This document shows positions 17,656 through 22,462 of a stretch of DNA of 64,000 nucleotides, piece after piece. Source of the stretch: Holophagae bacterium (GTDB lineage: Bacteria; Acidobacteriota; Holophagae; Acanthopleuribacterales; Acanthopleuribacteraceae); NCBI GenBank assembly GCA_029263455.1, contig JAJCXM010000034.1:124001-188000 (forward strand), in the 5' to 3' direction. Below the pieces are notes generated by a model. That model saw nothing but the letters and a program-made list of their open reading frames with translations, ran no database searches and had not been told where the DNA came from. The first letter of the stretch is position 1; each line of letters starts with the position of its first letter. A program made the translations under genes and the position numbers.

Positions 17656-20600
17656 ATGCTAAGACTTAAATCACTGGAGTTACACGGGTTCAAGTCCTTT
17701 GCCGACAAAACTAAACTCACCTTTCCAGGTGGCATTTCATGTGTCGTCGGCCCAAACGGTTGTGGTAAATCAAACATAGCCGATGCTGTTTCCTGGGTTC
17801 TGGGTGAGCAAAGCGCAAAGAGCTTGCGTGGCGACAAGATGGAAGATGTGATTTTCGCAGGCTCGTCTTCACGTAAGCCCTCTTCATTCGCTGATGTCAC
17901 TATGACCTGGATTCGATTAGAAGCACTTAGTAAGCAAGATGAAGATCAACTGATCATCACTAGGCGTTTACATCGTAATGGGGTTTCTGAATACCTGATG
18001 GACGGCAAGGCCTGTCGGCTAAAAGACATTCAGACAGCTTTGATGGATTTCGGCATGGGGTCAAAGGCTTATTCCATTATTGAGCAGGGCCGCATAGGTC
18101 AAATACTCAATTCCAAACCTACTGAGCGAAGAGCGATCATCGAAGAAGCGGCCGGCATCATGAAATACAAAATAAGACGCCGCGAATCAGAACTGAAATT
18201 ACGTTCTGCCGAAGACAACCTGACGCGTATCAATGACATCATTAACGAAATCCAAAAACAACGCTCCCACCTAAACCGCCAAGTCGGGAAAGCGCGCAGG
18301 TACAAACACTTAAAAGATGAAATCAGAGAACTTGATTATCAGCTTCTAAACTTCGAACTAGTTCGCTATCACGATGAATTGAGACAACTTGCGAAAGCCT
18401 ACCAACAGGCAGACAAACGAGAAATCACACACAATGCAGAACTAGGAAAACAGGACGCTGCAATTACCCAACTTCGTCAACGCCTGATTCAAGAAGAGCA
18501 ATCCCTGCGCGCCATGGAGTCGGCCTATAACCAGATCATCAACCAGATCAATCTATTTGAAGAACGCATTAAGTTTAATCAAGCCAAAGCAGCGGAGCGT
18601 CAGCAACAGTTAACGGCCTACGCCAGTGAACGTGTTGCCTATCAAGAAGAGAACAACCGCATCAATGAAAAGATGGCACTGCTGCAAGTGGATCTTCAGA
18701 ATCACGAAAACAAGCACAAGCAGGGTCAATCTCAATTGGGCGAAGTGCAAACAAGTTACAAAACCGCGAAACAAGGGCTCGACCAGGCCGTGCTTTCATT
18801 AGACGGTGTCGCAAAAACGATCAGACAATTAGCCGATGCCAACGCAAACTTGAACGCGGAACGCAATCAATTAGACTTACGCGTACAGCAATTACAGCAG
18901 CAGTCGACCGACATGAACGCACAGTTGCATTCGTTGAAAGAAGAGCAATCCAGCTTGGATCAACATCGAATTCAACAGCAGCAGAATAATCTAGAAAAAG
19001 ATGATGATCTCAGCGAACAAGTTAAACAACTGCAAGAGCTGGAAGCCCAACTACCTCAAGTCACAGAACAAAAAAGAAGCGCACAGGAGCAGCTCCAACA
19101 ACACGAAAGGAAATGCCAATCCCTAAAAGACCGGATTGAACATTTACAGGCGATCCTTGATTCACGTCGCGACATTGCCGACGATCTCAAACAAATCCTA
19201 AATAGATGCCGACAGCCCGTCACCCTTCTACGCGACCTCGTTGACTCTACGCATACCTATGACGCTGCCCTTGAAAGGGCTCTAGAGGGACTTTTAGACA
19301 GCTTTGTGGTGAAGACGGACGAAGAGGCAACGGTTATTCAAGAGGCAGCACAAGGACGACCTTATCAATGGATTGATTTGCGCCAATACCCGACCGCCAC
19401 GGCCAAGCAGAACACACCAGCCAACACCATCGCAGCAGCCGATCTATTATCAGTCGATGACAAACTAGCGGCACACTTGCGTCCGCTACTGGCAGACGTA
19501 TATGTCTGTTTGGGCAAGCAGTCAGAGTCCCAAACTTTGTGGCTCGAGCATCCCGGCTTAAGATTCATTTCCGAAGATGGTTTGATTCAATGGCGATCTA
19601 GTCTCACCCAGATCAAAGGCAACAAAAAGACGCTGGGTTTCCTCAGCCTAAAAGGCGAACTGCAACAGGCCAACAAAGATTTGAAGGGCCTCTTGAAGCA
19701 GCAAGGGCCTTTAGTTGAGCATCAGACAAAGGCACAGCTAGCTTTAGATCAACTTCAAAACGATCTCGACAAGCTAAGGCGCCAGCGCCACCAAATGGAG
19801 AAAGAGCAACTGGTAGCTCGCCAAAAACTCGACCATTTGCTTTCCGTAAAGGCACGACTCGACGCCCGCGTCATCGCCGACCAAAAACACGAGCAAGCAA
19901 TTAAGCAACAAAATGATCAATGCAGAGCCAGAATCATCGAACTTGAAGGCCAAATCAAAAATCAGCATGCTGAGTTGAAGGAGTTGGAGCTTAAGTATCA
20001 AGATGGTCAGCAGCGACTTGAGGGTGATCGCGAAAAACATCAAAGATTGCACGCCGAGCTAGCAACCGTTGAGGCCCAACAACAGGCACTGGAATCAGCC
20101 ACAAAGCGCATAAAGTCTGAATTAGAACACTTACAACTATCACATACACAACTAGATGCACGCATGTTGCGCGGTGAGCAGCAAAAAGCTAGTTGGGAAA
20201 GCGATATTCAAAACGCACTGCGGTCCAGTGATGAGTTAAGCGTGCAAATCAAGAATGCCATCAATACAAAATCCGAATCGCACGAACGTCTAAAGAACCA
20301 AGAACAATTGCTTGCGGAACTGCAGACACAGGCATCTGGCATGGAGAACTCGCGTAAAGCAATGCTGCAAATTCGCGACGATGTGCGTGCTGAACAGGGT
20401 CGTTTTGAACTGGAAACGGCGCGTGTTTCTAGTAAAGTCGCCCATCTGGAAGAAAAGTTTCTGTCCAATAAGGGACAGGCATTTGCCCGTAATGAGGTAC
20501 AAACAGAAGATCTCATCGACGCCGATCAGTTCTCGCAAAAGAAACAGGTCGTAGATGAACTCAATCGTAAACTTCAAGCACTAGGTACGGTAAACCTGTT

Positions 20601-21174
20601 GGCCATTGAAGAGTTTGAAGAGATTGAGACTCGCTATACGTTCTTAGTGGAACAGCAGAAAGACCTAATCGACTCCATCGCCGAGATACGGTCGGCAATT
20701 CATAAACTCAATCGCATTTCAATCGACAAATTCAAATCAGCCTTTGAGGTTATAAACACTCAGTTTTCCAAGATATTCGTCGACTTGTTTGGGGGTGGTG
20801 AAGCCAGACTAGAACTGCTCGACGATAGCGACGTTTTGGAATCCGGCATTGACATGTTGGTTCGACCCCCGGGCAAGAAGCTGCAAAACGCCCTACTTAT
20901 GTCCGGCGGCGAAAAGGCTTTAACGGCCATTGCGCTGCTGCTGGCGGTTTTTCAATACCGCCCTTCTCCTTTCTGTCTATTGGATGAAGTTGATGCCCCG
21001 CTTGATGATGCCAACGTAAATCGCTTCATCAACAAGATAGAAGAGCTCAAAGGTGACACACAATTCATCGTGATCACACACCAGAAATCGACCATGACGG
21101 CGGCCTCCTCACTCTTCGGCGTAACCATGGAAAACAGCGGTTGCTCCAAGCTCGTTTCTGTCAAGTTTGACTGA
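17656..21174 (+). CDS. smc: chromosome segregation ATPase Smc
   Basis: This 1172-residue protein has the full SMC plan. The N-terminal head carries Walker A GPNGCGKS (32-39). Two long coiled coils, very rich in Gln, Glu and Lys, flank a hinge at about 510-640 (AALERALEGLLDSFVVKT). The C-terminal head has the ABC signature LMSGGEKAL (about 1081-1089) and Walker B FCLLDEVDAPLDD. It dimerises, traps DNA loops and compacts the chromosome, usually with ScpA/ScpB, which are not in this window. I chose the ATG at 17656 because MLRLKSLELHGFKSF is the family N-terminus; the longer frame runs into pyrR. A tandem pair of unknown genes follows. Confidence 0.95.
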   Translation: MLRLKSLELHGFKSFADKTKLTFPGGISCVVGPNGCGKSNIADAVSWVLGEQSAKSLRGDKMEDVIFAGSSSRKPSSFADVTMTWIRLEALSKQDEDQLIITRRLHRNGVSEYLMDGKACRLKDIQTALMDFGMGSKAYSIIEQGRIGQILNSKPTERRAIIEEAAGIMKYKIRRRESELKLRSAEDNLTRINDIINEIQKQRSHLNRQVGKARRYKHLKDEIRELDYQLLNFELVRYHDELRQLAKAYQQADKREITHNAELGKQDAAITQLRQRLIQEEQSLRAMESAYNQIINQINLFEERIKFNQAKAAERQQQLTAYASERVAYQEENNRINEKMALLQVDLQNHENKHKQGQSQLGEVQTSYKTAKQGLDQAVLSLDGVAKTIRQLADANANLNAERNQLDLRVQQLQQQSTDMNAQLHSLKEEQSSLDQHRIQQQQNNLEKDDDLSEQVKQLQELEAQLPQVTEQKRSAQEQLQQHERKCQSLKDRIEHLQAILDSRRDIADDLKQILNRCRQPVTLLRDLVDSTHTYDAALERALEGLLDSFVVKTDEEATVIQEAAQGRPYQWIDLRQYPTATAKQNTPANTIAAADLLSVDDKLAAHLRPLLADVYVCLGKQSESQTLWLEHPGLRFISEDGLIQWRSSLTQIKGNKKTLGFLSLKGELQQANKDLKGLLKQQGPLVEHQTKAQLALDQLQNDLDKLRRQRHQMEKEQLVARQKLDHLLSVKARLDARVIADQKHEQAIKQQNDQCRARIIELEGQIKNQHAELKELELKYQDGQQRLEGDREKHQRLHAELATVEAQQQALESATKRIKSELEHLQLSHTQLDARMLRGEQQKASWESDIQNALRSSDELSVQIKNAINTKSESHERLKNQEQLLAELQTQASGMENSRKAMLQIRDDVRAEQGRFELETARVSSKVAHLEEKFLSNKGQAFARNEVQTEDLIDADQFSQKKQVVDELNRKLQALGTVNLLAIEEFEEIETRYTFLVEQQKDLIDSIAEIRSAIHKLNRISIDKFKSAFEVINTQFSKIFVDLFGGGEARLELLDDSDVLESGIDMLVRPPGKKLQNALLMSGGEKALTAIALLLAVFQYRPSPFCLLDEVDAPLDDANVNRFINKIEELKGDTQFIVITHQKSTMTAASSLFGVTMENSGCSKLVSVKFD

Positions 21175-21286
21175 TGTCGGGTAAAAACGGTTTTCACATA
21201 AACAACGTTTTTGTAGCAACGATAGATCCATTTCTTATCCTGTGAATGTCCCTTAAAGCCACGTAAAAACATGTAAAAGTAAGTCC

Positions 21287-21315
21287 TTGTCTTGCATAGA
21301 TTAAACGTGTAAAGT
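21287..21315 (+). promoter_or_regulatory. possible promoter of the tandem HTH-like genes
   Basis: TTGTCT (21287-21292), a 17-base spacer and TAAAGT (21310-21315), each four of six to consensus. It lies 22 bases before the first gene. The 163-base gap after smc also holds a weak AAAAACG/CGTTTTT hairpin, so the pair is probably a separate unit. Confidence 0.35.
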
Positions 21316-21337
21316 TAAAAAAAACGCGAGGCTGAAG

Positions 21338-21901
21338 ATGGCATCAGGAAATCGGACTAAAGATGAAAAAACACCAATAGACGTACCCAAAATTTTCGAT
21401 AAAGACGAAATGAGTCTTAAAAGTATCGATCCCAACATATCGTCTGATGAGCTTCTCAACACCGAAGGTGTTTACTATTTGAAGGATGTTGCCAAGCTAT
21501 TAGAAATCGCGCCCCACGATCTCAAACGCAGAGCACATACGTTTGAAGACAAAGGACGCGATCCCTGGGAAATCATGGGTGTCAGGAAGACTTGGTCTCA
21601 TTGGATCATTCGTATGACCCGTTTCTCGCCCTACTTTAGAAAGTTCATGCTGCCGCGGCTCAACGCAGTTGAATCCAAATGGGACTCCAACGAAATGCTT
21701 GCTCAAAAAGGGATCTTTTATTTGAGTGAAGTATGCGAAAAGTTGCCGCTAACGCCCCATCACATTAAGTACCAAGTTCGACGCAACAAGAAATCGCGTG
21801 AGCAGTTTGGCGTATGGAAGGATATCGAGTACAAAACCTACTTGGTAGACATGGAGGTTTTTTCGAAGTGGATCGAAAAGATCTGGAACGAAGAAGCTTA
21901 G
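21338..21901 (+). CDS. two-repeat HTH-like protein, first of tandem pair, unknown family
   Basis: This 187-residue protein contains two copies of a repeat of about 65 residues, at roughly 37-101 and 117-181. The shared pattern is E-[LM]-L-x(3)-G-[VI]-[YF]-Y-L-x-[DE]-V-x(3)-L-x(2)-[AT]-P-H-x-[LI]-K, then G-V-x-K and [WY]-[IL]-[IV]-[RD]-M-x(2)-F-S. The segment YLKDVAKLLEIAPHDLKRRA looks like the helix-turn-helix of MerR/AlpA-type domains. I infer a DNA- or RNA-binding protein with two winged-helix-like units; no family name is recognised. GAGG lies seven bases before the ATG. The next gene is a diverged copy with the same two-repeat plan. Confidence 0.8.
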   Translation: MASGNRTKDEKTPIDVPKIFDKDEMSLKSIDPNISSDELLNTEGVYYLKDVAKLLEIAPHDLKRRAHTFEDKGRDPWEIMGVRKTWSHWIIRMTRFSPYFRKFMLPRLNAVESKWDSNEMLAQKGIFYLSEVCEKLPLTPHHIKYQVRRNKKSREQFGVWKDIEYKTYLVDMEVFSKWIEKIWNEEA

Positions 21902-21928
21902 TCGCCGATGCAAGGAGATGTGAACAGC

Positions 21929-22462
21929 ATGGTAAAGAAAAAAATCTTTGAACCCATCGAGATGGAACTCAAGGACGTAAGCAGTGAGATATTACCTGAG
22001 GAGCTCTTAAAGCAGGACGGTATTTATTTAATGAATCCGGTCGCCAAGAAGCTTGGCATCGACTCAGCCGACCTACGTAAGAAAGCCAAAGACATGCTTG
22101 CTCAGGGTCGGTCTCCCTGGACAGAAATGGGTGTCCGCAAAACCTTGAGCGTTTGGATCATTCGCATGAAGACGTTCGCCCCTTACTTCGAATCTGATAA
22201 GTACTTCAAGATTCTGAGGGTAAACCCAAAGTGGGACGGCAACGAACTACTCACAAAAAAAGGCCTCTTCTATTTGACCGATGTTTGCCGCAAGATACCT
22301 TTCACTCCTCATCAATTTCGTCACCAAGTAAGACAGAATCCCAATTCACGTACGGAATATGGCGTATGGTGGGACGACGACTTGAAACATTACCTGGTCA
22401 ACATGGATGTCTTTTCTAAGTGGGTTATTGACTTGTGGATTAACCGTCGAAAGGGCTTCTAA
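21929..22462 (+). CDS. two-repeat HTH-like protein, second of tandem pair, unknown family
   Basis: This 177-residue paralogue of the preceding gene has the same two-repeat layout (about 23-87 and 103-167). Both share MGVRKT, WIIRM, GV(W), VFSKW and the first-repeat ending F-x-P-Y-F. The first repeat's HTH is changed (IYLMNPVAKKLGIDSADLRK), the second kept (FYLTDVCRKIPFTPHQFRHQ). I chose ATG 21929 because AAGGAG lies 11 bases upstream; the in-frame ATG at 21908 has no such site, and a GTG at 21920 sits too close. The gene follows the first by 27 bases. Retention of both copies argues for a heterodimer or divided roles, but this is inference. Confidence 0.78.
   Translation: MVKKKIFEPIEMELKDVSSEILPEELLKQDGIYLMNPVAKKLGIDSADLRKKAKDMLAQGRSPWTEMGVRKTLSVWIIRMKTFAPYFESDKYFKILRVNPKWDGNELLTKKGLFYLTDVCRKIPFTPHQFRHQVRQNPNSRTEYGVWWDDDLKHYLVNMDVFSKWVIDLWINRRKGF

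Follow-up and report, generated by a model that had tools for sequence, protein, structure and literature searches.

Tandem winged-helix proteins encoded beside smc in a Holophagae bacterium: an undescribed lineage-specific family of probable DNA-binding regulators

The two proteins, P1 and P2, that are encoded by adjacent genes in a stretch of 64,000 nucleotides from a Holophagae bacterium (hereafter the window, meaning the whole of the DNA analysed) are probably tandem winged helix-turn-helix (wHTH) regulators that bind DNA sequence-specifically, in which repeat 2 would recognise a half-site common to the family and repeat 1 a private one, with a possible tie to phospho-signalling. The family to which they belong is real, lineage-specific and undescribed, although its module is of a known kind; Pfam, NCBIfam and PDB sequences offer no confident match. 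This unnamed family, with up to about 20 paralogues per genome, occurs in most likely animal-associated Acanthopleuribacteraceae and relatives, and its predicted layout is unusual in that a single chain combines a constant and a variable reading head, both of excisionase type. Should these proteins be regulators tied to PP2C/FHA signalling, they would constitute a regulatory network specific to this lineage and at present overlooked by databases.

The gene pair and its upstream region

As the earlier note had described, two adjacent open reading frames lie on the forward strand (Table 1), encoding proteins of 187 and, when counted from the ATG at 21929, 177 residues. The reading frame of P2 (21908-22462, +) is open from 21908; the ATG at 21929, which is preceded by AAGGAG, is the likelier start. 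The smc gene (about 17659-21174) lies upstream of P1 across a gap of 163 bp. The two proteins share identities of 83% and 78-81% with those of the second species of the genus, and comparison of P1 and P2 with the other species of the genus yielded a pN of 0.12 and a pS of 0.84-0.92, the latter being saturated; both proteins are under strong purifying selection.

Most of the smc-P1 intergenic sequence has diverged from that of the sister species, unlike the block GTAAAAACGGTTTTCAC, whose palindrome AAAACGGTTTT occurs once in the window. This block is an unproven candidate for an operator or an smc end signal, and the second conserved block, GTGTAAAGTTA, is a likewise unproven candidate for a promoter or operator element. 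A promoter scan upstream of P1 found no sigma-70-type site on the forward strand, and no convincing shared motif was found upstream of 58 copies of the family. The best gapped word, AAGT-N2-GTTT (9/58 versus 4/512), owes most of its occurrences to three orthologues and to coding sequence preceding P2, and it also overlaps a promoter-like stretch at locus L040; it is not claimed as an operator. At the orthologous loci L033, L036 and L037, a stretch of about 110 bp leading up to the start codon is shared almost letter for letter by two genera, which exceeds the expectation for a simple promoter and, judged from sequence, possibly marks an operator or a structured leader.

Table 1. Features of the gene pair and of its upstream region (window coordinates)
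Feature	Position	Strand	Basis
Block GTAAAAACGGTTTTCAC with palindrome AAAACGGTTTT (21184-21194), just after the smc stop	21181..21197	+	Identical in sister species
GTGTAAAGTTA, second conserved block, about 20 bp upstream of the P1 start	21307..21317	+	Sister-species comparison
Gene 1 (P1), 187 aa, two predicted winged-helix repeats	21338..21901	+	ORF list, repeat comparison, AF2 model
P1 repeat 1 (residues ~33-104): strand, HTH, two-strand wing, C-terminal helix; putative recognition helix 59-71 varies among paralogues	21434..21649	+	AF2 model, conservation
P1 repeat 2 (residues ~112-186): topology as repeat 1; putative recognition helix 140-149, with HQLRYQ as the family consensus, almost invariant across the paralogues	21671..21895	+	AF2 model, conservation
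Gene 2 (P2), 177 aa from ATG 21929, two predicted winged-helix repeats	21929..22462	+	ORF, AF2 model
P2 repeat 1 (residues ~20-91)	21986..22201	+	AF2 model
P2 repeat 2 (residues ~99-172)	22223..22444	+	AF2 model

Internal repeats and history of the pair

The proposal that each protein contains two copies of one repeat, here measured at ~70 residues, is well founded. All six pairwise comparisons among the repeats of P1 and P2 score above every one of 1,000 shuffles (P1r1/P1r2, 75 versus a shuffle maximum of 46), including the weakest pair, P2r1/P2r2 (46 versus 43), and the family-wide profiles of repeat 1 and repeat 2 match at 99%. The highest scores are obtained between repeats of like position (P1r1/P2r1, 167; P1r2/P2r2, 250), which indicates that the internal duplication is older than the split of the P1 and P2 genes. 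The order of events envisaged in the earlier note, an internal duplication followed by a gene duplication, holds in this respect; however, the pair probably did not arise by tandem duplication in recent times. P1 groups in the family tree with singletons of other genera (L033-L037; support 96/73, suggestive only), and P2 lies just outside this group (support for the nine-member group, 98/90); on account of these positions, the P1-P2 pair probably predates any local duplication.

The first HTH of P2, which had been described as altered, does differ in sequence, but its model retains the strand-helix-helix element without visible damage. Conservation in related genomes, on which the proposal had been made to depend, is seen at both levels: the pair is kept in the sister species and the repeats are present family-wide.

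Predicted fold and family searches

The AlphaFold models of P1 and P2, each built on only four sequences, reached pLDDT values of 78.6 and 81.7, and both agree with the assignment of two HTH-type repeats to each protein. In these two independent models, all four repeats follow the same order of elements: a short helix, a strand, the HTH, a short helix, a two-strand wing and a C-terminal helix. The predicted models show the strand-HTH-two-strand wing-helix arrangement, over about 60 residues, of the excisionase/MerR-type (HTH_17-like) wHTH fold. With pTM values of 0.47 and 0.54, they leave the relative placement of the two wHTH domains unfixed, including that in any TraN-like pseudo-dimer.

The excisionase Tn916 Xis is the first structural match for both models (Z 4.9 over 59 residues at 2.8 Å, and Z 4.8 over 59 residues at 2.6 Å), and RacA, BldC, BmrR, NmlR and TraN match at Z 4.1-4.5 (TraN at 4.5 and 4.4, RacA at 4.5 and 4.1 for the two models), values that are modest, below 5, and within the range in which chance matches between small, widespread folds occur. 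The rows with a Z above 4 in both comparisons are nearly all excisionase/MerR-superfamily DNA-binding proteins, and most rows above this value span 51-61 of ~65 residues at 2.3-3.2 Å. The structural check against known families that the earlier note had proposed hence returned excisionase/MerR-type matches of modest Z and no confident match to a characterised family; the nucleic-acid-binding role it had suggested is supported as the likeliest one by the predicted fold and the structural matches.

At the sequence level, the family is indeed not a recognised one, as searches of Pfam, NCBIfam and PDB sequences returned no confident match and nothing above a curated cut-off. HTH_17, as a sequence family, gave a best E-value of 0.012, in only 2 of 51 members, the curated cut-off not being reached. 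PHROGs yielded weak excisionase matches, and the family profile matched HTH_17 proteins of the same genomes weakly and in register (30% and 19%). A match to Pfam Swi3 (best E-value 0.0079; the window protein at 16.2 bits versus a cut-off of 25) is not claimed.

Distribution of the family

Of seven genomes in one family of the Acidobacteriota, six carry copies, 70-odd altogether, and the seventh has none; 71 family open reading frames were found by HMM in the retrieved copies with their flanks. Four copies, two of them very divergent, are held by the window's genome, two by the sister species, and 14-20 by each of four large relatives (G003-G006). Among 396 genomes sampled across the phylum, matches were confined to the window's genus, the large relatives having been covered by the genome-wide search, and a scan of species-representative contigs for close relatives retrieved the sister species only (Acidobacteria bacterium HKST-UBA04). 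Most copies elsewhere are single genes amid unrelated neighbours (more than one copy in 11 of 59 loci), so that a heteromer of the P1-P2 type, as had been envisaged for the pair, is no rule of the family.

Recombination directionality factors, or other mobile-element control proteins dispersed with genomic islands, would share the excisionase-type fold, and would be in keeping with the phage integrases near two loci (L048 and L051), with the mobile-looking 41.6-kb contig bearing two divergent copies and with the repeated cassette on small contigs of G005 (L062-L064). We regard such a role as distinctly unlikely, however, because no relative was found in viral contigs (two single-protein scans), plasmids or phages, most copies lie away from any recognised integrase, the genes on either side of the window pair are ordinary chromosomal ones, and several orthologous groups hold their position across genera (L033/L036/L037; L045/L047/L049).

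The 41.6-kb contig belongs to the window's genome (G000:C9; L089, L090); one of its very divergent members overlaps a gene whose kinase match stays below threshold, and the other is fused to a DUF4379 treble-clef zinc finger. At L048 (10227-15539 and 796-4374), a copy pair adjoins an RHS-repeat protein of 1770 aa, the C-terminus of which is a borderline Ntox10 match, and also a DUF4815 protein and a phage integrase; the locus is possibly a polymorphic-toxin or tail-related island.

Adjacency to smc

The position of the pair had also suggested a link to chromosome organisation, which did not withstand closer comparison. Smc-accessory (KITE-like) or chromosome-organisation proteins, whose tandem winged helices act with the neighbouring Smc, might be expected directly after smc, where the genes indeed lie, also in the sister species; the top Foldseek row is ScpB (E-value 2e-3), and most copies are held by the four relatives without Smc-ScpAB. 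The ScpB row, however, has a TM-score of 0.18 and an rmsd of 18.8 Å, the profile comparison with ScpB (hhalign) gives less than 1%, SMC_ScpB (PF04079) is absent from the Pfam matches, and the window's genome possesses its own canonical ScpB together with ScpA on another contig. Furthermore, the adjacency recurs in just one further genome, the other one of this genus, and no copy outside the genus adjoins smc. We consider this role very unlikely.

The large relatives G003-G006 (~10-12 Mb) have no detectable ScpA or ScpB, yet each carries its 14-20 copies, and they show no match to the window's Smc at 1e-30, their other SMC_N matches being of RecN/RecF/ABC size only; three smaller relatives have Smc, ScpA and ScpB, all three. 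A dedicated partnership of the family with Smc is thereby ruled out, as neither Smc nor ScpA nor ScpB is detectable in the four copy-richest relatives, and the coincidence of Smc loss with family expansion carries little weight because each is one event on one branch. The bolder idea, that the family contributes to chromosome organisation, with 14-20 DNA-binding paralogues (each having a common and a private head) having taken over part of the nucleoid architecture in the four relatives lacking Smc-ScpAB and the smc-side copy of the smaller genomes representing the ancestral link, appears highly improbable to us.

One of these genomes, G003, is a single contig of 11,786,365 bp. SbcC_Walker_B searches of G003 and G005 returned SbcC-sized proteins, and in G003 also one protein of 1435 aa. 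Four large genomes without detectable Smc-ScpAB bear on what bacteria need for folding and segregating an 11-Mb chromosome.

Gene neighbourhoods and recognition helices

Of the 37 PP2C_2 genes in three genomes, 10 have a copy of the family no more than 3 kb away, against 0.39 expected, the cases deriving partly from one duplicated cassette (L062-L064, L066) and not all being independent. PP2C genes are found near 9 of the 59 loci and a membrane-TPR protein near 10, and an FHA-domain protein adjoins the closest relatives of P1 (L033, L036). These neighbourhoods suggest, by association only, phospho-signalling control and regulation; since the window pair has no recognised kinase, phosphatase or FHA neighbour, the signalling link comes from the paralogues only.

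The cassette contains a membrane-TPR gene, a PP2C gene, a 90-aa single-repeat gene, a 186-aa two-repeat gene, a PP2C gene and, on contigs long enough to show it, a gene for a β-propeller protein. Copies of the cassette occur on several small contigs of G005 and G006; the single repeat of its 90-aa genes is repeat 2. Another dispersed family, with proteins of ~97 residues (GRPMKY...YTPATIA...RFSNNHNFPDEGDG), is likewise lineage-specific, occurs in ~45 places and has no Pfam match. In 9 of 45 cases its gene is found no more than 3 kb from a tandem-wHTH gene, versus 0.46 expected, and once (L079) it stands in the same reading frame as such a gene; examples are L051:10326-10619, L050:8044-8337, L053:9356-9667 and L040:9273-9566.

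When 42 paralogues are compared, conservation amounts to 2.9 bits per column in the repeat-2 recognition helix and to 1.7 bits in its repeat-1 counterpart, where mainly K and R positions are kept. The polar residues of the repeat-2 helix (family consensus letters) are conserved: H141 in 31 of the 42, Q142 in 36, R144 in 39, Y145 in 32 and Q146 in 32. From the near-constancy of one helix and the variability of the other, we infer a shared and a private half-site. Two excisionase/MerR-type winged helices per chain would allow one polypeptide to act as the DNA-reading pair of a dimer, for which TraN of pIP501 offers a precedent, with repeat 2 reading the half-site common to the family and the variable helix of repeat 1 directing each paralogue to its own target. 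Regulation would extend to the gene of the paralogue itself and to genes close by, of which many are linked to Ser/Thr phosphorylation (PP2C, FHA).

The near-constant repeat-2 helix could equally reflect binding of a shared protein partner. Winged-helix protein-protein adaptors in a Ser/Thr-phosphorylation network, acting without DNA binding, would fit the clustering with PP2C, membrane-TPR and FHA proteins and the overlap of one family gene with a weakly kinase-like gene, and a near-constant repeat-2 surface suits a single shared partner. We nevertheless hold this to be unlikely, as the proteins closest in structure bind DNA, the residues of the conserved helix (H, Q, R, Y, Q, K) have the polar and basic character typical of DNA recognition, and the zinc-finger fusion is better suited to nucleic acids. 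The tandem wHTH regulator is preferred, followed by the adaptor, the mobile-element factor and chromosome architecture, in that order.

Comparison with known systems

ScpB and other KITE proteins resemble P1 and P2 in having two winged helices per chain, and smc adjoins the P1/P2 genes; they differ in that there is no profile match and no good whole-chain superposition, and that the canonical ScpB is encoded separately in the genome. The MerR superfamily (BmrR, NmlR, BldC, RacA) shares the fold of its DNA-binding domain with the P1/P2 repeats at the Z values given above. P1 and P2 are without the C-terminal dimerisation helix or coiled coil and the effector domain of the MerR family, the chain ending at the second wHTH, and their tandem repeat may stand in for MerR-type dimerisation.

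Tn916 Xis, RdfS, TorI and other excisionases have a fold like that of each P1/P2 repeat, but they are single-domain proteins tied to an integrase, whereas P1 and P2 have two domains per chain; no integrase was recognised beside the window pair when the open reading frames at 15-30 kb were read through.

TraN differs from P1 and P2 in belonging to a type IV secretion operon and in being shorter (~117 residues in the structure), and no sequence match to it was found. To our knowledge, TraN has undergone no paralogue expansion. It is nonetheless among the best structural matches of both models and is, like P1 and P2, a small chain with two excisionase/MerR-type winged helices (PDB 4p0z, 4pm3), which in P1 and P2 are predicted. 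In TraN of pIP501, both winged helices of one chain contact specific double-stranded DNA (PMC10877727).
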